From contig DAHVAR010000181.1 of the NCBI GenBank assembly GCA_027314515.1, positions 1 to 64,000 on the forward strand: a DNA stretch of 64,000 nt, read 5' to 3'. Shown here piece by piece: positions 10,537-22,295 of this stretch. The position numbers and the translations under genes were made by a program. The notes under the pieces are model-generated. The model was not told where the DNA came from and made no database searches. It saw nothing but the letters and a program-made list of their open reading frames with translations. The stretch is from Actinomycetota bacterium (GTDB taxonomy: Bacteria; Actinomycetota; Actinomycetes; Streptosporangiales; Streptosporangiaceae). Within the stretch, counting starts at the first letter, position 1; each line of letters begins with the position of its first letter.

Positions 10537-12288
10537 ATGAATCAGGACATAACGTCTCGGCTCGGGGCTGACCTCTTTCTGCTGCACGCGCCTAGCGTCT
10601 ACGACTTCCGCGAGCGCGACGACATGCTATTCGCTTACCTGAGCGACAGCGACAGCGTCAATGTCACCTCGATATACGAGATGTACCCCATCGGCTGGTT
10701 CTCGATCAAGCAGCACCTGGCTGACCACGGTTTCGACACGAAGATCGTGAACGTCGCCTCGCTGATGCTCATGCATCCTGACCTGGATGTCAGAAAGCTG
10801 CTGGGCCGCCTGGAGGCGCCTATCTTCGGGTTCGACCTGCACTGGATGACGCAATGTCATGGCGCCATTGAGCTGGCGGCTGTCCTGAAAGAAGTGCACC
10901 CGGACGCGCTGACCATTTTCGGCGGCATCTCGGCGACGTATTACGCCAGCCAGCTCATCCGCTACCCGAGCGTCGACGTCGTGGTTCAGGGTTACGACAC
11001 CCTGGAGCCGGTGACCGAGCTGGTCAGGCGGGTCCGGCAGGGCCGCCGGGACCTGAGCGCCATCCCGAATCTGCTCTATAAGGCCGGCGGTGAGGTCCAG
11101 GCCACCGGATTCACCCACAAGCCGGCCACCCGGTACAACGACGTGCGCAACGACTGGTCGTTTTACCGCGATACGCCCGGCGCCGGGCCGTCGGCGTCCA
11201 AGCTGATCATGACCCTGCCCAATACCGGGTGCGCGCATGACTGCGGCTGGTGCGGCGGATCGCGCTTCTCTTACCGCAACATCATGGGCGTCCGCAAGAC
11301 CCTGGTCCAGAAGGATAACGAGCTCATCGTGAAAGAGCTCCGGACCATGGGCGAAGCGGCGAAGCACACCTCGATATATGCGCTTCAGTGTTATTCAGAA
11401 AACAAGGTGCGCATGCACCAGTATCTGGACGCGGTGAAAGAGGTTGGCTACAACAGCGTCTTCTTCGAGCAGTTCAACCTGACTCCGCCCGATACGCTCA
11501 AGAAGATGGGCGAGTCGACCACCGCCTACATCATGCTCTCGCCGGAATCCCACGACCCCAAGATAAGCGCCGCAGCCGGCCGCGGTACCTACACGATGGC
11601 CGAGATGGAGGCCTGGATTCCGCGCGCCCTGGACGCCGGGGTGAAGGGAGTCATGATCTGGTTCTTCATCGGCATGCCGTACCAGGACCGGCAGTCGGTG
11701 CTGGACACGGTGGCGTACTCCGAGCGCCTGATACGCACGTTCGGCGGATGGGACGCGCTACCGCTGATCTGCCCGATGGTGCCGTTCCTGGACCCCGGAT
11801 GCCGGTTCTTCGAGGAGCCGGACCAGCATGGTTACCGCATCTTCCACCGCACGCTTGAGGAACACCGGCGCGCGATGGTCGAGCCGCTGTGGTACCGGCG
11901 GCTGAACTACCAGACACGCTGGCTGGACAGGCGCCAGCTGCAGGACGTCTCCTACGAGGCAATTGCCCGCCTGGTCGAGATCAAGGGCGAGTACGGGGTA
12001 CTGCCGTCCTGGTTCTGCCAGGCCATACTGAAGACCATCGAGGAGACACGGCAGCTGCTCGGGGAAATGGAGCGGGCTCTGGTACTCGACAGCAAGCTGC
12101 CGGCCGCGCTACGGGACGAGATACGTTCGTACAACCGCAAGATCCTGGCCTATTCAAGCGATCAGATCGTCCCGGTACGACGTCCGTTCGGCGGGCGGTG
12201 GTTCGACGACATGACGGTCCCGGAGGAGATGATCGAGGACATCCTGCGGCCTCGGGCGGCGGTCCGGTGCGCCGGCGCGGCAATCTGA
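10537..12288 (+). CDS. B12-binding-type radical SAM protein
   Basis: 583 residues. N-terminal cobalamin-binding-like Rossmann domain (about 10-170: IGWFSIKQHLADHGFDTKIVN, then FGGISATYY), though the classical DxHxxG histidine loop is not clear (DLHWMT instead). The radical SAM domain follows, with the CxxxCxxC cluster motif in GCAHDCGWC (Cys 232, 236, 239). Further conserved parts are AYIMLSPESHDP and MIWFFIGMPYQD. The C-terminal 150 residues are helical. Cobalamin-dependent radical SAM enzymes usually methylate unactivated carbon or phosphorus, or rearrange rings. The protein belongs by position to the gene cluster that follows. The specific reaction is not recognisable. Confidence 0.75.
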   Translation: MNQDITSRLGADLFLLHAPSVYDFRERDDMLFAYLSDSDSVNVTSIYEMYPIGWFSIKQHLADHGFDTKIVNVASLMLMHPDLDVRKLLGRLEAPIFGFDLHWMTQCHGAIELAAVLKEVHPDALTIFGGISATYYASQLIRYPSVDVVVQGYDTLEPVTELVRRVRQGRRDLSAIPNLLYKAGGEVQATGFTHKPATRYNDVRNDWSFYRDTPGAGPSASKLIMTLPNTGCAHDCGWCGGSRFSYRNIMGVRKTLVQKDNELIVKELRTMGEAAKHTSIYALQCYSENKVRMHQYLDAVKEVGYNSVFFEQFNLTPPDTLKKMGESTTAYIMLSPESHDPKISAAAGRGTYTMAEMEAWIPRALDAGVKGVMIWFFIGMPYQDRQSVLDTVAYSERLIRTFGGWDALPLICPMVPFLDPGCRFFEEPDQHGYRIFHRTLEEHRRAMVEPLWYRRLNYQTRWLDRRQLQDVSYEAIARLVEIKGEYGVLPSWFCQAILKTIEETRQLLGEMERALVLDSKLPAALRDEIRSYNRKILAYSSDQIVPVRRPFGGRWFDDMTVPEEMIEDILRPRAAVRCAGAAI

Positions 12289-13612: not shown

Positions 13613-13813
13613 TCATGTCCCTTCGACAAGCGCGATCGCGTGCTCCGGGCAGTTGAGCGCCGCGCGCCGGGCGTCGTCCTGCTGCTCCGGTGGCACGACA
13701 CCGTCGCCAAGCACCGTCCCGTAGCCCTCCTCGTCATCGCCGAAAAGGCCGGGCGCGAGGTCGTAGCAGCGTCCGTGCCCCTGGCACAGGCCGGCCTCGA
13801 TCTGCAGTTTCAC
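13613..13813 (-). CDS. [3Fe-4S]-type ferredoxin for the P450
   Basis: 66 residues from GTG 13813, with GAGAGGA upstream. Cysteines in LCQGHGRCYDLAP and NCPEHAI give the three-Cys pattern of the small [3Fe-4S] ferredoxins that partner actinomycete P450s. The acidic middle (FGDDEEGYG) is usual for partner docking. It is co-translated with the P450 (TGA and the next GTG one base apart), so it is very probably its dedicated redox partner. Confidence 0.9.
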   Translation of the reverse strand: MKLQIEAGLCQGHGRCYDLAPGLFGDDEEGYGTVLGDGVVPPEQQDDARRAALNCPEHAIALVEGT

Positions 13814-13965
13814 CAGAACAGTCCTCTCAGCTGAGAACGACAGCGCCCCGATCAGCTCCGGCGGCCCGAACAGGCGAAGGGTCGCTGCCGGCCCGCCGCG
13901 TCGCAGCGCGCCGCCCGCTGCTGATGACGAGCAGCGGGCGACCTGCGAGCGCACCGGGCAAGCCC

Positions 13966-14034
13966 TGACGCCTCCAGGCAAATTGACGCCTCCAGGCAAA
14001 CTCACCCCGACAGCAAACTCACCCCGACAGCAGT
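13966..14034 (+). repeat. two back-to-back short tandem duplications upstream of the decarboxylase
   Basis: The 17-mer TGACGCCTCCAGGCAAA occurs at 13966-13982 and 13984-14000. It is followed at once by CTCACCCCGACAGCAAA at 14001-14017 and a near-identical copy at 14018-14034. Both pairs lie in the roughly 390-bp divergent region (13814-14202) between the ferredoxin and decarboxylase genes. The rest of that region (14035-14190) is AT-richer and probably contains promoters. The repeats could be a regulator-binding array or replication slippage. Confidence 0.7.
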
Positions 14035-14202
14035 ATGAAACCACATCGCCATGCCGCCGGGCGCTGGGTTGGGTTGTTCGTTACGCGTATTTTCTTAACT
14101 CATTAATTGTCACGCTGTTTACCCGCGCAGGCCACGGGAATGGCCCCTGCGCCGAAACATTGTTGCTGAGATTTGCATTTCCCCGAGAGGAGTTCGGAGT
14201 CC

Positions 14203-15795
14203 ATGGGGCTCACAATCCCCGTCATCGACGGCGAGGACCAGGGCGGGCTCGCATGCGCCCAGCAGCCGAATGCCGGGGCGCAGGCTGCCACCAGCACTGA
14301 CTACGGCCGGGCGCCCTCGCCGTTCGCAATGGACGGAAAGGACTTCCGGCTTCTCGGTAACCGGCTAGTAGAGACGCTTGCCGCCTATCTAGACAAGCTT
14401 CCGCAGGAGCCCGTTTACCGCCCATTGCCGGCCGAAGTAAGGCAAGAACTAGAGGAAATGGAGCTACCCGCCGAGGGAGAATCTCCGGAGGAGGTCATCG
14501 ACAGCTTTCTCCGGCTGGTGCTGCCATACGGCCGCGGCCAGAATCATCCGTGTTTCGCTGCGTTTGTTGACCCGGCCGCGTCGAAGCTGAGCATGCTGGC
14601 GGCATTTGCCGCGGCGGTCACCAATACGAGCGGAGCTGGTGGTAATTACGCCGCTATATACGTGGAGCGCGCGGTTATCCGGTGGCTTGCCGAGATCGTC
14701 GGCTTCCCGCCGGGCTCCAGCGACGGGGTCCTCCTCGGCGGCGGCTCGGATGCGAACCGGCACTGCCTGGAAGTCGCGCGGTACGCCGGCGCGCGGGCGG
14801 GCGGCTGGGACGTCCGCGAGGAAGGCCTGTCCGGACACCCGAAGCTCACCATGTACATGTCGGCTGAGGGGCATTCCTGCCTGGAAAAGGCAGCATTCAC
14901 CCTCGGTCTCGGCGCCCCGCGGAAGGTGGCCGTCGGGGCGGACTTCCGGATGTCCCTGGCCCGCCTGCGGGCCGCGGTCGCGGCTGACCGCGCGGCCGGC
15001 TGCCTGCCCGTCCTGGTAGCCGCCAACGCGGGAAGCGTGAAGACCGGTGCCATCGACCCGCTCGATGATCTCGCTGACTTCTGCCGCAAGGAGGACCTCT
15101 GGCTGCACGTCGACGGCGCCTACGGCGGCTTCGGGGTACTCGACCCTCGGCTCGCGCACTGGTACTCCGGGCTCGATCGGGCCGACTCGGTCGCCCTCGA
15201 TCCGCACAAATGGCTGGCGGTGGCCATCGGCTGCAGTTGCGCGATAGTGCGGCAGGGCGCGCTGCTACAGGACACCTACAAGCTCGTCCCCTCCTATCTC
15301 AGCCTGCCGCCGGGACAGGGATTCGCCGGGGGTACCTGGTACTCGCATCGCAGCGCCGAGCAGACCAGGGACTCCGGCCGGGCGCTCAAGACCTTCTGGA
15401 ACATCCAGCAGGCCGGGAAGACCGGCCTGGTCGATCACGTCCAGCGGCACGTCGACCTGGCGCGCCACCTGGAGAAGGTCATCGAAGCCAGCCCTGAGCT
15501 GGAACTGCTGGCAACCGGGCCGCTGACCGCGGTGTGCTTCCGGTACGTGCCGGCCGTGCGCGCCGACGAGGCGAGCCTGGACCTGCTGAACCAGGCGATC
15601 ATGGCCGACCTTCAAGTCGGCGGGCAGGCGTTCCTGGCCGGCACGGACATCCGCGGCCGCTTCGCGTTGCGGTCCTGCGCCCTGCACTACGCCCTTGACG
15701 AAGGCCACGTGCAAACCATCGTCGACGCTGTCACAGGCGCCGGGAGGCGCCGCGTCCTGGCCGAAGCGGCTGGCAGCAGACCGGGGCCCCGATGA
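14203..15795 (+). CDS. PLP-dependent group II amino-acid decarboxylase
   Basis: 530 residues from ATG 14203 (GAGAGGAG upstream). Group II PLP fold: the cofactor region TNTSGAGGNYAAIYVERAVIRW, GGGSDANRHCLEVAR, HVDGAYGGFG with the PLP-binding Asp, and the Schiff-base lysine in ALDPHKWLAV. These match aromatic-L-amino-acid, glutamate and diaminobutyrate decarboxylases. In this cluster it could make an amine building block or, as some members do, an aldehyde by oxidative deamination. Its TGA overlaps the start of the MurT-like gene (ATGA), so the two are coupled. The substrate cannot be assigned by eye. Confidence 0.88.
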   Translation: MGLTIPVIDGEDQGGLACAQQPNAGAQAATSTDYGRAPSPFAMDGKDFRLLGNRLVETLAAYLDKLPQEPVYRPLPAEVRQELEEMELPAEGESPEEVIDSFLRLVLPYGRGQNHPCFAAFVDPAASKLSMLAAFAAAVTNTSGAGGNYAAIYVERAVIRWLAEIVGFPPGSSDGVLLGGGSDANRHCLEVARYAGARAGGWDVREEGLSGHPKLTMYMSAEGHSCLEKAAFTLGLGAPRKVAVGADFRMSLARLRAAVAADRAAGCLPVLVAANAGSVKTGAIDPLDDLADFCRKEDLWLHVDGAYGGFGVLDPRLAHWYSGLDRADSVALDPHKWLAVAIGCSCAIVRQGALLQDTYKLVPSYLSLPPGQGFAGGTWYSHRSAEQTRDSGRALKTFWNIQQAGKTGLVDHVQRHVDLARHLEKVIEASPELELLATGPLTAVCFRYVPAVRADEASLDLLNQAIMADLQVGGQAFLAGTDIRGRFALRSCALHYALDEGHVQTIVDAVTGAGRRRVLAEAAGSRPGPR

Positions 15796-17306
15796 CTGCC
15801 CGGACGCCACGGCACGCAACCGTCCGGGGAGAGCGTCAGGTGCGCGTCGTGGCCAGCCCGACCGCTGCCGCCTCCGGTGAGGGCAGCGCGCCGCTGCCGC
15901 CGTCAGCGCAAGCGCGCCTGGCGCTCGCGCTAGCGGCCGGCAAGGCGGCTGAGACCGCCTCCAGGTTCCTGCGGGCCGGCGGCGGGACTAGCTTCCCCGG
16001 CACCGTCGCCCGCTGGATCGACCCGCACATCCTGCGGAAGGTCGCGGCCGCGAGCGACGCCGGCAAGGTAGTCGTCACCGGCAGCAACGGCAAGACAACG
16101 ACCTGCCGCATGCTCGCTGCCCTCGCGCAGGCCAGCGGTCTCGCGGTCACCCAGAACCGGTCTGGCTCCAACCTGTTGCAAGGCGTGATCTCAGCCGCCG
16201 TGCGCGGGGCGGACCTGCGCGGCCGGATGGACGCTCAGCTTCTGCTGCTTGAGGTCGACGAGGCGACCGTACGGCAGGTGAATCCGGCGGTGCGGCCCGA
16301 CACGTTCCTGGTCACGAACATCTTCCGGGATCAGCTAGACCGCTTCGGTGAGCTGTACTCGATGGCAAAGGGCATTGAGGACGTCATCGAGGCGCTTCCG
16401 GCGTCAGCCACCGTCGTGCTCAACGGCGACGATCCGCTGGTAGCCAGCCTCGCCCCGGCGGCACGCGCACGCCGGCTGTACTTCGGAGTCCAGGCTGACA
16501 GCGCCGGCCTGCCCGAGCCAGAGCACGCCGCAGACACCATCCGCTGCGTCCGCTGCCAGCACCCGCTGAGCTACCGCGCGGTGTACCTCTCCCACCTGGG
16601 CGATTACTGGTGCCCGGAGTGCCACAGCGCCCGCCCGGCCCTGGACGTCGCGGTGACCGAAGTGCGGTCGTCACCCGAAGCCGGGTCGACGATCACGGTG
16701 CAGACACCGCAGGGAGCATTCCCGCTCGACGTGCCGCTGGCCGGCCTGCACAACGTGTACAACGCGGCGGCGGCGCTCAGCTGCGCGATCGCGCTGGCCC
16801 TGCCGCGGCCGCTGGAGCCGGCCGGCGCGCGCGCTGCCCTGGCGCGGCTGCGCCCGGCGTTCGGCCGCCTGGAGGAGATCCAGGCAGGCGACCGGCGGGT
16901 GGTACTCGCGTTCGTCAAGAACCCGACGTCCTACAACGCCACCATGCGGGAGGTGCTGCAGCGGCCCGGCCGAAAGCACGTCCTGGCCGCGCACAGCAAC
17001 ACCGTGGTCGACGGGGAAGACTTCGCCTGGCTGTGGGACGTGGACCTCGAGCAGCTCGTACCGCAGCTAGCGAGCCTTACCGTCAGCGGGACCAGGGCGG
17101 AGGAAGTCATGCTGCGGTTCAAGTACGCGGGTGCTGAACCCGGCAGCACCCTGGTCATCCATGATCGCGCGGCTGCCCTGCGCGCCGCGCTGACCCGCAC
17201 GCCGCCAGGCGAATCGCTGTACATCTTCGCTGGCTACACCCCGATGCGAGAGCTGCGGAGCATCATGCAGCGGCACGCGTGGGTGCCGCCGTTCTGGGAG
17301 GAGTGA
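15792..17306 (+). CDS. MurT-like Mur ligase family protein
   Basis: 504 residues. After about 60 variable residues comes the MurT N-terminal region (TASRFLRAGGGTSFPGTVARWIDP), the ATP P-loop VVTGSNGKTTTCRML, a Cys4 zinc ribbon (CVRCQ...WCPECH) inserted in the central domain as in MurT, and a DUF1727-like C-terminal domain (FAGYTPMRELRSIM). MurT with GatD normally amidates D-glutamate of lipid II using glutamine. Here the gene is sandwiched between a decarboxylase and a carrier-protein pathway and overlaps the decarboxylase gene, which argues for a paralogue recruited to amidate or ligate a small molecule. It could instead be the only housekeeping copy; a genome search would tell. Confidence 0.82.
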   Translation: MTARTPRHATVRGERQVRVVASPTAAASGEGSAPLPPSAQARLALALAAGKAAETASRFLRAGGGTSFPGTVARWIDPHILRKVAAASDAGKVVVTGSNGKTTTCRMLAALAQASGLAVTQNRSGSNLLQGVISAAVRGADLRGRMDAQLLLLEVDEATVRQVNPAVRPDTFLVTNIFRDQLDRFGELYSMAKGIEDVIEALPASATVVLNGDDPLVASLAPAARARRLYFGVQADSAGLPEPEHAADTIRCVRCQHPLSYRAVYLSHLGDYWCPECHSARPALDVAVTEVRSSPEAGSTITVQTPQGAFPLDVPLAGLHNVYNAAAALSCAIALALPRPLEPAGARAALARLRPAFGRLEEIQAGDRRVVLAFVKNPTSYNATMREVLQRPGRKHVLAAHSNTVVDGEDFAWLWDVDLEQLVPQLASLTVSGTRAEEVMLRFKYAGAEPGSTLVIHDRAAALRAALTRTPPGESLYIFAGYTPMRELRSIMQRHAWVPPFWEE

Positions 17307-17310
17307 GGAC

Positions 17311-18186
17311 ATGACAGCGGCGCCGATGACGGTCCGCATCTGCTACCTGTACCCGAGACTGCTGAGCGTCGCGGGTGACAGGGGCAACCTGTTCGCCCTC
17401 ATGCAGCGCTGCGCCTGGCGAGGGATCCGCTACAGCGTGACCGAGGCCGATGCCGGGGTCGTCCCTGACTTCGCGGAGGCCGACCTGATCCTGTTGCACG
17501 GCGGCCAGGATCGCGAGATGACGGCCGCCGCGCAGGACCTCGCGGCGAAGTCCGGCCCGCTGCGAGAAGCGATCGAGTCCGATGCCGTCGTCCTGGCCGT
17601 CTGCGCCGGTTACCAGCTCCTGGGCCGGTACTACGCCCCGCCGGAAGGACCGCCCATCCACGGCCTCGGAGTGCTGGACGTGGTGACCGAGGGCGGCCCG
17701 AAACGATTCATCGGCCACGTGGCGGTGCATTGCGATCTTTCTCCCGGCAGGCAGCATCAGCTGGCCGGGTTCGAGAATCACAGCGGGCGCACCTATCTGG
17801 GCGGCAACGTCAGGCCGCTGGGAAGGGTGCTGGCCGGCTCCGGCAACAACGGCGAAGACGGCACCGAAGGCGCCCGCTACCGCGAGGTGTACGCCACCTA
17901 CCTGCACGGCCCGGTGCTGCCGAAGAACCCGTGGCTGGCCGATCACCTGCTGTCCAGGGCGCTAGCGCATCGCTATCAGGACGTCAGCCCGCTTGCCCCG
18001 CTCACCGACCGGGCGGAGGTGCAGGCGCACGGGGCCGCGCTCCGGCTTGCCCGGCGGCCGGCCGGGCGGTGGCGGGCAGCCGCGGCCGCCGTATCCCGGA
18101 TCGGGCCGCCAGCGCGGATGCCAGCGACGCGGCCGGACAGAGGCGCCAGCACTACAGACAAGGCGACAGGGTGGACTTCTCGCTGA
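17311..18186 (+). CDS. GatD-like glutamine amidotransferase, partner of the MurT-like protein
   Basis: 291 residues. Class I (triad) glutaminase resembling GatD/CobQ: nucleophile in VLAVCAGYQLLG (Cys 98), GFENHSGRTYLGG, and catalytic His in YATYLHGPVLPKNP. It begins 4 bases after the MurT-like gene, in the usual murT-gatD order. GatD releases ammonia from glutamine and passes it to the ligase partner. About 60 residues at the C-terminus are Ala/Arg-rich low complexity and exceed the normal GatD length of roughly 240. This tail overlaps the next gene start by 16 bp. Confidence 0.82.
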   Translation: MTAAPMTVRICYLYPRLLSVAGDRGNLFALMQRCAWRGIRYSVTEADAGVVPDFAEADLILLHGGQDREMTAAAQDLAAKSGPLREAIESDAVVLAVCAGYQLLGRYYAPPEGPPIHGLGVLDVVTEGGPKRFIGHVAVHCDLSPGRQHQLAGFENHSGRTYLGGNVRPLGRVLAGSGNNGEDGTEGARYREVYATYLHGPVLPKNPWLADHLLSRALAHRYQDVSPLAPLTDRAEVQAHGAALRLARRPAGRWRAAAAAVSRIGPPARMPATRPDRGASTTDKATGWTSR

Positions 18187-19316
18187 GCGCGCAGCAGCGC
18201 GAACTGACGGAGGCGGCGACCGCATTCGCCCGGAAGGAACTCAACCAGGATCTGGCCAAGCGAGACGAGGCCGGAGAGTTCCCGCGGGACGCCTGGCGGG
18301 CATGTGCCAAGTTCGGTGTCCAGGGCCTGCCCGTACCTGCCGAGCTGGGCGGCGCCGGCTGCGACGTCCTCACCACGGCGCTTGTCATGGAAGCCCTCGG
18401 CTACGGCTGCCAGGACAACGGGCTGCTTTTCTCGCTCAACGCGCAGATGTGGAGCGTCGAACTGCCGCTGGTCATCTTCGGCACCGCAGCCCAGCGGCAG
18501 GCCTACCTGCCCGGCCTGGTGTCCGGTGACATCATCGGCGGGCACGCGATGACGGAGCCCGGCACCGGTTCCGATGCCCTGCACCTGCGATCACGGGCCG
18601 AGCGCCGCGGCGATCACTACCTGCTGACCGGGGCCAAGCAGTACATCACGAACGCTCCGGTCGCCGATGTGCTGCTGTTCTACGCCCAGCTGGCGGACCG
18701 TCCCGGATTGACCGGGCTATCCGCGTTCCTGGTCGACGCCCGGGCACCCGGCGTCGAGATAACCGGCGGCTCCGACAAGATGGGCCTGCGGACCTCGCCG
18801 ATGGGCGAGATAGCGCTGACCGACTGCCTCGTTCCGGCCGAGAACCGGCTGGGACCTGAAGGCGCGGGGATGGCCATCTTCAACTCCTCCATGGAGTGGG
18901 AGCGAAGCTGCCTGTTCGCCAGCGCTGTCGGCGCCATGCGCCGGCAACTCGACGCGTGCGTGGAGTACGCGAACTCCAGGGAGCAGTTCGGCCAGCCCAT
19001 CGGGAAGTTCCAGGCCGTGGCCGGAATGCTGGCCGACATGTACGTGCGCCTGGAGGCGGCGAAGCTGCTGATCTACCGGGTCGCCTGGCTCAAGCAGCAG
19101 GGCAAGTCCGCTCCGGCCGAGGCGGCCGCCGCCAAGCTCTTCACCAGCGAAGCATGGGTGGCCTCCAGCCGCGATGCGATCCAGGCTCACGGCGCCTGGG
19201 GCTACCTGAAGGAGGCCGGGGTTGAGCGCGATCTCCGGGACGCGATCGCCAGCACCATCTACTCGGGAACCTCGGAGATCCAGCGGGTGATACTCGCCCG
19301 GATGCTCGGCCTATGA
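18171..19316 (+). CDS. acyl-CoA dehydrogenase family flavoprotein, probable prolyl-carrier-protein dehydrogenase
   Basis: 381 residues from GTG 18171. Full acyl-CoA dehydrogenase layout: helical N-terminus, FAD-binding MTEPGTGSD and ITNAPVADV segments, and C-terminal QIHG-like IQAHGAWGY. The features SSMEWER, REQFGQPIGKFQAV and the ending IYSGTSEIQRVILARMLGL closely resemble the flavoenzymes that oxidise prolyl-S-PCP to pyrrolyl-S-PCP (PltE, RedW and CloN3 types). An adenylation enzyme and a carrier protein follow directly, the same trio as in pyoluteorin, prodigiosin and clorobiocin pathways. Assignment to proline is inference; other carrier-bound amino acids are possible. Confidence 0.75.
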   Translation: MDFSLSAQQRELTEAATAFARKELNQDLAKRDEAGEFPRDAWRACAKFGVQGLPVPAELGGAGCDVLTTALVMEALGYGCQDNGLLFSLNAQMWSVELPLVIFGTAAQRQAYLPGLVSGDIIGGHAMTEPGTGSDALHLRSRAERRGDHYLLTGAKQYITNAPVADVLLFYAQLADRPGLTGLSAFLVDARAPGVEITGGSDKMGLRTSPMGEIALTDCLVPAENRLGPEGAGMAIFNSSMEWERSCLFASAVGAMRRQLDACVEYANSREQFGQPIGKFQAVAGMLADMYVRLEAAKLLIYRVAWLKQQGKSAPAEAAAAKLFTSEAWVASSRDAIQAHGAWGYLKEAGVERDLRDAIASTIYSGTSEIQRVILARMLGL

Positions 19317-19377: not shown

Positions 19378-20970
19378 ATGGCATATCTGCTTCACCGCCT
19401 GCTGACTGATGCGGCGGCCCGGCAGCCGCGACGGCCGGCGATAGCGGCCAGCGGCTGCGTGCTCACCTACCAGGAGCTGGACCAGCTGAGCAACAAGGTG
19501 GCCCGCGCGCTGCTCCGGCTGGGCGTGTCACCCGGCGACCGGGTGGGAGTGCTCGCCCCCAAGTCGGCTGCGTCGGTCATCGGGATATACGGCGCACTGA
19601 AGGCCGGCGCGTGCTACGTGCCGCTCGACCCGAAGGCACCCGACCAGCGGCTCAGCTATGTCGCGGCGGACAGCGGCATGACCGTCATCATCGCGGACGA
19701 GGCGCGGGCACCGCACGCTGCGGCCCTGGCCAGCCGCGTTCGCCAGGCGCGCGGCGTCCTGGTGGCCGGCGTTCCCGGCAGCCAGGACGGCGCGCAGGCC
19801 GGGCCGTCCACGGACCAGGGCGCGGCCGTTCTGCCGTGGAGCGCGGTGGCCGCGGAATCAGCCGCGCCGTTGCCGGACCACGCGATCGAGACCGACCTCG
19901 CCTACATCCTGTACACCTCGGGGTCGACCGGGATGCCGAAGGGCGTGATGATCTCCCACCGCAACTCGCTCTCCTTCGTCGAGTGGTCAGCCGCCGCTGC
20001 CGGGCTCAGCGACCGGGACCGCGTCTGCAGTCCAGCCCCGCTCCACTTCGATCTGTCGGTATTCGACCTGTTCGCCAGCTGTCAGGCCGCAGCCTGCCTG
20101 TGCGTGCTGCCCGAGGGGGCGGCAACCTTCCCGGTGTCGATCGCGCGATGGCTCGAAACCGAGCGCATCTCGGTCTGGTACTCGGTGCCATCGGTGCTCA
20201 CGCTGCTCGCCTGCTATGGCGGCCTGCAGCAGTTTGACCTTGCCCACGTGCGGACGGTGATCTTCGCCGGAGAGGTGTTCCCGCCCAGGTACCTGGCAAA
20301 GCTGATGACCGGGCTCCCGCACCCTCGCTACCTGAACTGGTACGGGCCTACCGAGACCAACGTGTGCACGGCGTTCGAGGTGCCGCCGGGCAGTGCCGGC
20401 GCCGGGCCCGTCCCCATCGGCAAGGCCTGCGCCAACACCGAGGTGTTCGGGATCACCGGCGAAGGCCGCCAGGTGTCGCTGCCCGGCGAGATCGGCGAGC
20501 TGTACGTGCGCGGGCCCTCGCTGATGCGCGGGTACTGGGGCCAGCCAGCCAAGACAAGGGAGGTGCTGGTCGCCAGCCCGTTCCGGGCCGAATACGAAGA
20601 GCCCGTGTACCGGACAGGCGACCTGGTCACCCTGGACCAGGCCGGAAACTACCTCTACCTCGGCCGCCGGGACACCATGGTGAAGATTCGCGGCTACCGC
20701 GTCGAACTGGGCGAGGTGGAAGCCGCGCTGTACCGGCATCCGGCCATCAGGGAGGCGGCGGTGGTGCCGGTACCGGACGAACTACTCGGCAACCGCCTGC
20801 GGGCGGTCGTCACCGCCGACGAGCCGGGCAGCCTGGGCCGCCAGAGCGTGCTGGATCACTGCCGGCAATGGCTGCCGAGCTACATGGTCCCCGACCTCGT
20901 CGAGATCCGGCAGGCGCTGCCGAGGACGTCGACCGGCAAGGTCGACCGCGCCGGCCTCGCCAGCGAGTAG
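19378..20970 (+). CDS. stand-alone amino-acid adenylation enzyme, probably proline-activating
   Basis: 530 residues from ATG 19378 with AAAGGGAA upstream. NRPS-type A-domain core motifs are in order: LTYQELD (A1), YILYTSGSTGMPKG (A3), YGPTETNVCT (A5), ELYVRGPSLMRGYW, VYRTGDLV (A7), KIRGYRVELGEVE (A8) and TSTGKVDR with the catalytic Lys (A10). The stretches APLHFDLSVFDLF and LPHPRYLNWYGPTETNVCT are characteristic of free-standing prolyl-AMP ligases such as PltF/RedM. It would load an amino acid, likely L-proline, onto the carrier protein encoded next. No thiolation domain is fused. Confidence 0.8.
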   Translation: MAYLLHRLLTDAAARQPRRPAIAASGCVLTYQELDQLSNKVARALLRLGVSPGDRVGVLAPKSAASVIGIYGALKAGACYVPLDPKAPDQRLSYVAADSGMTVIIADEARAPHAAALASRVRQARGVLVAGVPGSQDGAQAGPSTDQGAAVLPWSAVAAESAAPLPDHAIETDLAYILYTSGSTGMPKGVMISHRNSLSFVEWSAAAAGLSDRDRVCSPAPLHFDLSVFDLFASCQAAACLCVLPEGAATFPVSIARWLETERISVWYSVPSVLTLLACYGGLQQFDLAHVRTVIFAGEVFPPRYLAKLMTGLPHPRYLNWYGPTETNVCTAFEVPPGSAGAGPVPIGKACANTEVFGITGEGRQVSLPGEIGELYVRGPSLMRGYWGQPAKTREVLVASPFRAEYEEPVYRTGDLVTLDQAGNYLYLGRRDTMVKIRGYRVELGEVEAALYRHPAIREAAVVPVPDELLGNRLRAVVTADEPGSLGRQSVLDHCRQWLPSYMVPDLVEIRQALPRTSTGKVDRAGLASE

Positions 20971-21034: not shown

Positions 21035-21295
21035 GTGGAGACGATCATCAAGGATTACATCAGCCAGGAACTGGTCCGCGACCCCGAGTTGCTGCCCCTG
21101 GCCGACGAGGCATCACTGCTGGACAGTGGCATCCTCGACTCGCTGAGCCTGCTGCAATTGGTGGTCTTCCTGGAGGAGCGCTTCGCGATCACGGTGGGTG
21201 ACGCGGATCTGCTCCCGGAGAATTTCGCCAGCGTCAACACCATCTGCGCGTACCTGCGCGCCAGGGAGCCCGCGAAGCAGGCGGCACATGGGTGA
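21035..21295 (+). CDS. acyl/peptidyl carrier protein
   Basis: 86 residues from GTG 21035, with GGAAGAAAGG upstream. Four-helix carrier protein with the phosphopantetheine site in LLDSGILDSLSLLQLVVFLEE (Ser in the DSL motif). Free-standing carriers of this size with an acidic first half work with stand-alone adenylation enzymes and acyl-CoA-dehydrogenase-type oxidases. It follows the adenylation gene and overlaps the next gene by 8 bp. It probably carries the prolyl/pyrrolyl intermediate. Confidence 0.85.
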   Translation: METIIKDYISQELVRDPELLPLADEASLLDSGILDSLSLLQLVVFLEERFAITVGDADLLPENFASVNTICAYLRAREPAKQAAHG

Positions 21296-22295
21296 CAGCC
21301 GGGAAGGGCGGGTGCTCCGCAAGATAGGCGGCGTGGCCTACTGGGCTGGTGGCGCACCCGTCATGGCCCGGCTGCCGGCTGCCATCGGCTACCGCCTGGC
21401 ATGCTGGCGAGGCGACTGGCTATTCCGGCGGCACGCCGCCGAGCGGACCGAACTGGCAGCCAACCTGCGGCAGGTGCTCGGAAGTCAGCTCAGCCCGGCG
21501 GCAGCGCAGGACGTGACCCGGGAGTGGTTCCGGCTCGCGTCCTGCGAGGCCGTCGACGTGAAACGGCTACGGCACAGCGCGCTACCGCTGCGGCGGCTGG
21601 TCGAGATTCGCGGCCGGGAGCACCTGGAGACGGCACTTGCCGGAGGCAAGGGAGCCATCCTCTGCTCGGCGCACTTCGGATCCTTCGACAGCGCCTTCTC
21701 CCTGCTGAACCCCAGCGGCTATCCGGTCACCACCATCGGGCGCTGGCAGCACAAGTACACGGCGGGCCTGTCCGCCGCGGAGCGGCGGTTCTGGGCCCTG
21801 GTCTACGCCAAGCCGCTGCAACGCCTCCGGCAACGGCCGAACATCGAGCCATGGCCGGGCCACCTCGACGTAGCGGCACGGGCAGCCGCGGTGCTGCGCG
21901 CCAATGAAGTTGTGACGATCTGCATCGACGCACCGCCGCTCGACAGCGACCAGGCACGCGCCGTCGCGGTTCCCTTCCTCGGGGGCCAGGCCAGTCTGTT
22001 GCCAGGGATCGTGACCCTCGCCCAGGTGACGGGAGCGCCGGTGCTGATGACATTCCTGCACCGCTGCGCGGACTACCGGCACCAGGTGCTGGAAATCTCA
22101 GCCCCGTTGCCCACCGGAGGAGACACCGCGACGGCCTTCGCGCGCTGCGCGGCCGAAGTGAGCGCGACTATCACCAGGAGTCCGGCACATTGGCGCTACT
22201 GGGCGAGTACGACGGATCTCGTCACGCTTGGGCTTGTCCCGCCGCTGCGGGACAGATCGGCGGCGGTGGCCAGGTCCGTTGCCGTGGCCAGCTGA
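21288..22295 (+). CDS. LpxL/HtrB-like acyltransferase
   Basis: 335 residues; the ATG at 21288 overlaps the carrier-protein gene. The lysophospholipid/lipid A acyltransferase fold shows an HX4D/E-like active site (SAHFGSFDSAF: His and Asp), with TIGRWQHKY, EVVTICIDAPPLDSD and the substrate strand ITRSPAHWRYW. In actinobacteria the family includes PatA-type mannoside acyltransferases. Here it directly follows a carrier protein, so it may transfer the carrier-bound acyl group (for example pyrrolyl) onto a hydroxyl or amine acceptor, ending the assembly line. That role is inferred from gene order only. Confidence 0.72.
   Translation: MGDSREGRVLRKIGGVAYWAGGAPVMARLPAAIGYRLACWRGDWLFRRHAAERTELAANLRQVLGSQLSPAAAQDVTREWFRLASCEAVDVKRLRHSALPLRRLVEIRGREHLETALAGGKGAILCSAHFGSFDSAFSLLNPSGYPVTTIGRWQHKYTAGLSAAERRFWALVYAKPLQRLRQRPNIEPWPGHLDVAARAAAVLRANEVVTICIDAPPLDSDQARAVAVPFLGGQASLLPGIVTLAQVTGAPVLMTFLHRCADYRHQVLEISAPLPTGGDTATAFARCAAEVSATITRSPAHWRYWASTTDLVTLGLVPPLRDRSAAVARSVAVAS

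Follow-up and report, generated by a model that had tools for sequence, protein, structure and literature searches.

A MurT/GatD-type amidotransferase pair of probable Ktedonobacterial origin within a proline-carrier operon of Streptosporangiaceae

MurT and GatD normally amidate lipid II, the bacterial cell-wall precursor; together they form an enzyme of cell-wall synthesis that is essential in Gram-positive bacteria and serves as a drug target. To our knowledge, no role beyond the amidation of peptidoglycan (and an association with pseudomurein) has been described for it. What does such a pair do when its genes are embedded among those of secondary metabolism? The question is raised by the window, i.e., the whole 64,000-nucleotide stretch of Streptosporangiaceae DNA analysed here, in which a MurT/GatD-like pair had been predicted at positions 15792–18186. 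A complete pair was indeed found there, with Pfam domain matches all above cut-off. MurT2 (15792–17306, + strand; 504 aa) combines the Mur ligase central domain (Mur_ligase_M, 69 bits) with MurT_C (79.7 bits), and its partner in the same operon, GatD2 (17311–18186, + strand; 291 aa), is a CobB/CobQ-like glutaminase subunit (GATase_3, 123.9 bits).

Alignment of MurT2 to 6fqb and relatives, using the catalytic and zinc-ribbon residues of MurT as listed in PMC6085368, revealed the P-loop GSNGK (residues 97–101), the acceptor Asn127, E154/D156/E157, and the zinc-ribbon cysteine tetrad C252/C255/C274/C277, as well as the hinge GR (358–359) and the motifs KNP (376–378) and DGED (407–410). GatD2 contains the catalytic residues Cys98 and His199 and the substrate (glutamine-binding) Arg132. 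Every tested catalytic residue of the two proteins, including these three of GatD2, is retained in all eight cluster-type pairs. The dN/dS ratio of MurT2/GatD2 is 0.17–0.25, and the pair is under purifying selection. The conserved machinery suggests that the two proteins form a functional amidotransferase of the MurT/GatD type that depends on glutamine. The original prediction of about 60 extra N-terminal residues in MurT2 was too high; the excess over the genome's own MurT amounts to about 40 residues. An additional domain was ruled out, since residues 1–32 are predicted to be disordered (pLDDT of about 30 in a monomer model). Residues 1–16 are peculiar to the window and its 95% relative; the other clusters start at the codon that matches residue 17. 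The low-complexity tail that had been proposed for GatD2 is present, with a length of about 40 instead of 60 residues, because matches to solved GatDs stop at residues 225–249; it is poorly conserved, except for the end that overlaps the next gene.

The pair is additional to a housekeeping murT-gatD pair, which a search of the same genome located on another contig (C8); six of the seven other genomes carrying a cluster-type pair likewise contain at least one further housekeeping-like pair. Identities between the window pair and the genome's housekeeping pair are 35% (MurT) and 47% (GatD). In the tree, the cluster-type pairs form a clade (support 100/100) that is remote from the actinobacterial housekeeping pairs, separated from them with 100/100, and nested with Ktedonobacteria (Chloroflexota) at 100/99. 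Placement outside the housekeeping clade of its own phylum and the presence of a second genomic pair, the test proposed beforehand, support the recruitment of MurT2/GatD2. The assumption that the pair is a duplicate did not hold; duplication of the genome's own pair is ruled out by the tree and by the identity values. Since the clade is nested within sequences from Ktedonobacteria, the pair was most likely acquired horizontally, the donor being a member of the Ktedonobacteria or a close relative of them. An origin of the whole cluster from Chloroflexota was also considered and ruled out, as Ktedonobacteria hold only decarboxylase relatives of 38–48% identity and no such neighbouring genes.

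The nearest relatives are the second (alpha) pairs of Thermogemmatispora, Thermosporothrix, Tengunoibacter and Ktedonobacterales MAGs, with identities of 50–63% for MurT and 53–63% for GatD. We searched the comparison with these relatives for a residue-level sign of a new substrate and found none: six differences are fixed in MurT2 and three in GatD2, none of them at a known catalytic residue, and because the active site barely differs, nothing at this level suggests a new substrate. The DFAW motif, which replaces the usual form DTSW, was rejected as a mark of a new substrate, being a Chloroflexota trait. Scored against the NCBIfam equivalog models of lipid II isoglutaminyl synthase, the window pair, the one of the genome's two pairs that was scored, remained far below both cut-offs (MurT2, 222 of 800 bits; GatD2, 171 of 400 bits).

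The order decarboxylase-MurT2-GatD2-dehydrogenase is found in seven genomes of the family Streptosporangiaceae, representing four genera, and the cluster-type pair persists solely in the small number of genomes with the operon or its remnant. As predicted, MurT2 overlaps the decarboxylase gene (14173–15795) by 4 bp and GatD2 overlaps the acyl-CoA-dehydrogenase-family gene (18171–19316) by 16 bp, and both junctions overlap in the relatives as well. The 16-bp overlap and the gap of +4 bp between MurT2 and GatD2 occur in 7/7 clusters, while the decarboxylase-MurT2 overlap is 4 bp in two clusters and 13 bp in five. Recurrence of these junctions indicates that the overlaps are due neither to chance nor to annotation slips. 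The exact coupling persists across about 30% protein divergence.

The upstream gene, a constant companion of the pair, codes for a group II PLP-dependent decarboxylase (14173–15795, + strand; start uncertain), its nearest models being tryptophan/aromatic, diaminobutyrate and aspartate decarboxylases with moderate scores. Downstream, a prolyl-carrier-protein dehydrogenase of the acyl-CoA dehydrogenase family (18171–19316, + strand), a stand-alone adenylation domain that probably activates L-proline (19378–20970, + strand) and a PP-binding carrier protein (21035–21295, + strand) lie side by side. Along its entire length, the adenylation domain matches the L-proline ligase 6o6e. As to whether proline would be oxidized to a pyrrole or a pyrroline, the best solved match of the dehydrogenase is the prolyl-ACP dehydrogenase 4irn (414 bits), and the NCBIfam models PigA (424 of 500 bits) and RedW (415 of 650 bits) also match strongly, both under their equivalog cut-offs. 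The cassette is completed by an LpxL/HtrB-like acyltransferase (21198–22295, + strand), whose start is uncertain, the listed form overlapping the carrier gene by 98 bp; it presumably transfers the carrier-bound pyrrolyl group to an acceptor.

Two genomes separate the modules. G362 contains the dehydrogenase-adenylation domain-carrier-acyltransferase cassette without the decarboxylase and the pair, on a contig that ends inside the acyltransferase gene, and G361 contains decarboxylase-MurT2-GatD2 without the cassette. From this split it follows that MurT2/GatD2 travels with the decarboxylase. Signs of partial decay in the G361 cluster make this argument from modules less strong. Among the further genes, that for a B12-binding radical SAM protein (10537–12288, + strand; nearest NCBIfam model TIGR04190, 384 bits at a cut-off of 500) adjoins the core in most clusters and stands alone in G267, G275 and G100, which excludes it as an obligatory member. 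An accessory cytochrome P450 gene (12325–13737, – strand) probably has its true start downstream, because the open reading frame overlaps that of a likewise accessory ferredoxin (13613–14044, – strand; 4Fe-4S type by Pfam).

Given the fixed operon and the link to the decarboxylase, amidation of a small molecule by the pair is plausible. GatD2 would free ammonia from glutamine, and MurT2 would phosphorylate a carboxylate from which ammonia displaces the phosphate to give a primary carboxamide, as the conserved machinery implies; the substrate may be an amino acid or an amine made with the neighbouring decarboxylase. Decarboxylase and MurT2/GatD2 would in this way provide an amine bearing a carboxamide, while adenylation domain, carrier and dehydrogenase would convert proline to a pyrrole- or pyrroline-2-carboxyl thioester. 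The LpxL-like acyltransferase would link the two halves, and the P450 and B12-radical-SAM enzymes may tailor the product in some lineages. We give about even credence to this reading as a whole, in which a pair of Ktedonobacterial origin, placed in a biosynthetic operon, contributes to a carboxamide-bearing amine that is acylated by the cassette.

The chief alternative, possible but unlikely, is self-resistance: the product would inhibit MurT/GatD or some other step dependent on reading lipid II amidation, whereas MurT2/GatD2 would be a foreign, insensitive copy which keeps lipid II amidated during production. The cluster does contain a second, foreign and catalytically intact copy of an essential enzyme besides the native housekeeping pair, its active site is preserved, which a stand-in enzyme would require, and the rest of the cluster yielded no recognisable resistance gene. 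However, the pair tracks the decarboxylase and not the pyrrole cassette, it lies in the middle of the operon, translationally coupled in a conserved manner to a biosynthetic gene on either side, and a search of titles and abstracts did not reveal a natural MurT/GatD inhibitor. That the cluster makes such an inhibitor, the Ktedonobacterial pair being its maker's resistant copy, is a rather doubtful proposition. An unchanged role in lipid II amidation, with the pair adding peptidoglycan amidation capacity and its location being a matter of regulatory convenience, appears quite improbable: the isoglutaminyl synthase machinery is complete, but it would be redundant with the housekeeping pair, and neither its confinement to a few genomes with the operon or its remnant nor the exact coupling to secondary-metabolism genes would be expected. 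Very improbable is a MurT2 that ligates a carboxylate to the decarboxylase-derived amine instead of ammonia, GatD2 having a structural part; Mur ligases natively couple amines to acyl phosphates, and in six divergent MurT/GatD pairs of the same bacterial family GatD has lost both catalytic residues, so that MurT-type proteins may act without a glutaminase, whereas the invariant Cys98, His199 and Arg132 of GatD2 favour glutamine as nitrogen source.

Judged from sequence comparison, the pair is kept by selection within a small-molecule operon. If small-molecule amidation is its role, MurT2/GatD2 would be the first Mur-ligase-type amidotransferase in secondary metabolism and could help to predict pyrrole products that bear a carboxamide. 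Resistance would instead mean that the genes of the pair point to a compound inhibiting the housekeeping enzyme, and a cluster producing a MurT/GatD inhibitor would offer the first natural product lead against this essential target.

A literature search for MurT/GatD inside biosynthetic clusters retrieved nothing relevant, and the combination of cassette, LpxL-like acyltransferase, decarboxylase and MurT/GatD was not found in the literature searched. The pair resembles the lipid II isoglutaminyl synthases of S. aureus (6gs2/6h5e), S. pneumoniae (6fqb) and S. pyogenes (9sq9) in both subunits, domain make-up, murT-gatD order, P-loop, acceptor Asn, zinc-ribbon cysteines and the GatD Cys/His/Arg residues, but differs in being fixed in a proline-carrier/decarboxylase operon, additional to the housekeeping pair and outside its clade. 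It shares its catalytic motifs, including the DFAW variant, with the alpha pair of Ktedonobacteria, likewise a second MurT/GatD copy; the latter, however, is a stand-alone two-gene unit without adjoining decarboxylase or carrier genes. Stand-alone adenylation domain, carrier and prolyl-carrier dehydrogenase are also found in the PltF-PltE-PltL, RedM-RedW and AnaC-AnaB-AnaD pathways, whereas here an LpxL-like acyltransferase follows and, in most clusters, decarboxylase and MurT/GatD genes precede. In pseudomurein archaea, MurT/GatD has moved between phyla and a second MurT copy (MurT-like) occurs (PMC11915815), in parallel to the situation described here; there, however, it accompanies a wall polymer, whereas the window pair accompanies a small-molecule operon.

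The MurT-like (MurT2; 15792–17306, 504 residues) and GatD-like (GatD2; 17311–18186, 291 residues) proteins of the window are encoded between the genes of a group II PLP decarboxylase (14173–15795), which overlaps the MurT2 gene by 4 bp, and of an acyl-CoA-dehydrogenase-family protein (18171–19316), which overlaps the GatD2 gene by 16 bp. Genes coding for an adenylation domain (19378–20970), a carrier protein (21035–21295) and an LpxL/HtrB-like acyltransferase (21198–22295) follow; on the far side of the decarboxylase gene lie a B12-binding radical SAM gene (10537–12288) and, encoded on the minus strand, a ferredoxin and a P450. The closest named relatives of the host genome (5.86 Mb, 280 contigs, the window being contig C258) are Streptosporangiaceae metagenome genomes. 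Whole-genome searches with PF08353 and PF07685 located another murT-gatD pair, encoded by contig C8 (MurT, 412 residues; GatD, 255 residues), as the suggested recruitment would require. Its proteins share only 35% (MurT) and 47% (GatD) sequence identity with the window pair, which speaks against a duplication of the genome's own pair.

Pairs of the window type were found in eight genomes, including the host genome. The gene order decarboxylase–MurT2–GatD2–dehydrogenase is conserved in seven genomes of four genera, the adenylation domain, carrier and acyltransferase genes coming next wherever the contig extends. All seven clusters retain the MurT2–GatD2 spacing of +4 bp and the 16-bp overlap of GatD2 and dehydrogenase genes; the overlap of decarboxylase and MurT2 genes is 4 bp in two clusters and 13 bp in five. 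Both MurT2 and GatD2 are under constraint (pairwise dN/dS 0.17–0.25), with similar values for the remaining cluster genes. Because nearly all cluster-bearing genomes are fragmented metagenome assemblies, some of them 73–82% complete, copy counts are lower bounds, and absence from one genome is weak evidence.

Two genomes separate the modules of the cluster. In G361, the decarboxylase gene is located at the end of one contig (L144) and the MurT2-GatD2 pair at the start of another (L048), which very probably adjoin; they are accompanied by a radical SAM gene that is shortened and by what remains of an acyltransferase gene, while the dehydrogenase, adenylation domain and carrier genes are all absent from this locus. 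Genome G362 contains the dehydrogenase–adenylation–carrier–acyltransferase cassette (73, 63, 58 and 55% identity, respectively) without decarboxylase or pair, its only GatD/MurT fragments being of the housekeeping type. It is thus the decarboxylase that the pair accompanies. The radical SAM gene is not bound to the cluster and occurs alone in three genomes (81–86% identity). It is 81–96% identical across several genera, and its nearest model is TIGR04190.

The pair is of foreign origin. A homologue scan of 84,980 species genomes ranked the Streptosporangiaceae clusters first, followed by Chloroflexota (48–63%) and then Lachnospiraceae and Oscillospiraceae. In a maximum-likelihood tree of concatenated MurT and GatD, all eight cluster-type pairs form a single clade (support 100/100), remote from the actinobacterial housekeeping pairs, consistent with the predicted recruitment. 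This clade groups with Ktedonobacteria (100/99) within a larger Chloroflexota clade (100/100), but its exact sister is not firm (SH-aLRT 85 in one tree, open in the other). Transfer from Ktedonobacteria to the cluster-bearing actinobacteria is the simplest reading of the tree; the nested position of the cluster clade makes the reverse direction less likely. In Ktedonobacteria, the window-type pair is a second pair next to another one, a stand-alone unit with no neighbours in common with the cluster. Ktedonobacterial genomes G364–G371 each contain two distinct pairs, alpha and beta (e.g. loci L061 and L147); most other Chloroflexota genomes sampled contain a single pair.

The window pair retains the residues that have been reported to be essential or conserved in the S. 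pneumoniae enzyme (PMC6085368): in MurT2, P-loop Lys101, acceptor Asn127, E154/D156/E157, the RDQLDRFGE loop, the hinge GR358-359, KNP376-378 and the zinc-ribbon cysteines; in GatD2, Cys98, His199 and Arg132. The sole exception seen is locus L047, where Glu replaces the first of two adenine-contact asparagines. The predicted MurT2 model (mean pLDDT 85.8, first 32 residues disordered) has solved MurT structures as best matches. Only six positions of MurT2 and three of GatD2 are fixed differences between clusters and Ktedonobacterial relatives, none of them a known catalytic residue. Since the machinery is intact, the chemistry is very probably glutamine-dependent amidation, of a substrate not readable from sequence.

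A separate, divergent MurT/GatD family occurs at six loci in five genomes of the same bacterial family (L015, L044, L051–L054; two in G100), as solitary pairs in scattered contexts. In its GatD, the nucleophile Cys98 has given way to Gly, and the catalytic His199 to Arg or Cys; P-loop and zinc ribbon are intact in all three complete MurTs, whose KNP and hinge motifs are altered. This family appears to combine MurT with a dead glutaminase. At L053:7801-8661 (G100:C97), homology of the MurT gene beside the dead GatD is split (residues 37–106 and 297–503); as this gene is truncated or frame-broken, the pair looks like a decaying copy. Kin of this family with intact GatD occur at L049 and L050:1919-7004, and the penicillin-binding-protein transpeptidase gene adjoining the L050 pair suggests that the intact form has a role in the cell wall.

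An additional copy of an essential enzyme within a gene cluster, foreign and intact, classically points to self-protection. MurT2/GatD2 matches this description and, as the main alternative to a biosynthetic role, may be a resistant target copy, which the almost unaltered active site suits no less than a new substrate; however, the tie to the decarboxylase and the coupling in mid-operon favour biosynthesis. In the proposed biosynthetic pathway, decarboxylase and MurT2/GatD2 would provide a carboxamide-bearing amine, to which the acyltransferase would couple an acyl donor, either pyrrole or pyrroline, supplied by the proline cassette. The dehydrogenase best matches the prolyl-ACP dehydrogenase 4irn (414 bits; next entries, 297–317 bits), and scores 424 bits against PigA and 415 bits against RedW. 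The adenylation domain aligns along its full length to the L-proline ligase 6o6e, with a pocket read from the LgrA alignment as D-L-F-Y-I-A-W-V-C. The pocket of PltF-type proline domains is DLLYLALVC(K), a string for which a literature search gave no match. Enzymes of the LpxL type draw acyl groups from carrier proteins, in keeping with a transfer of the heteroaryl group onto an amine.
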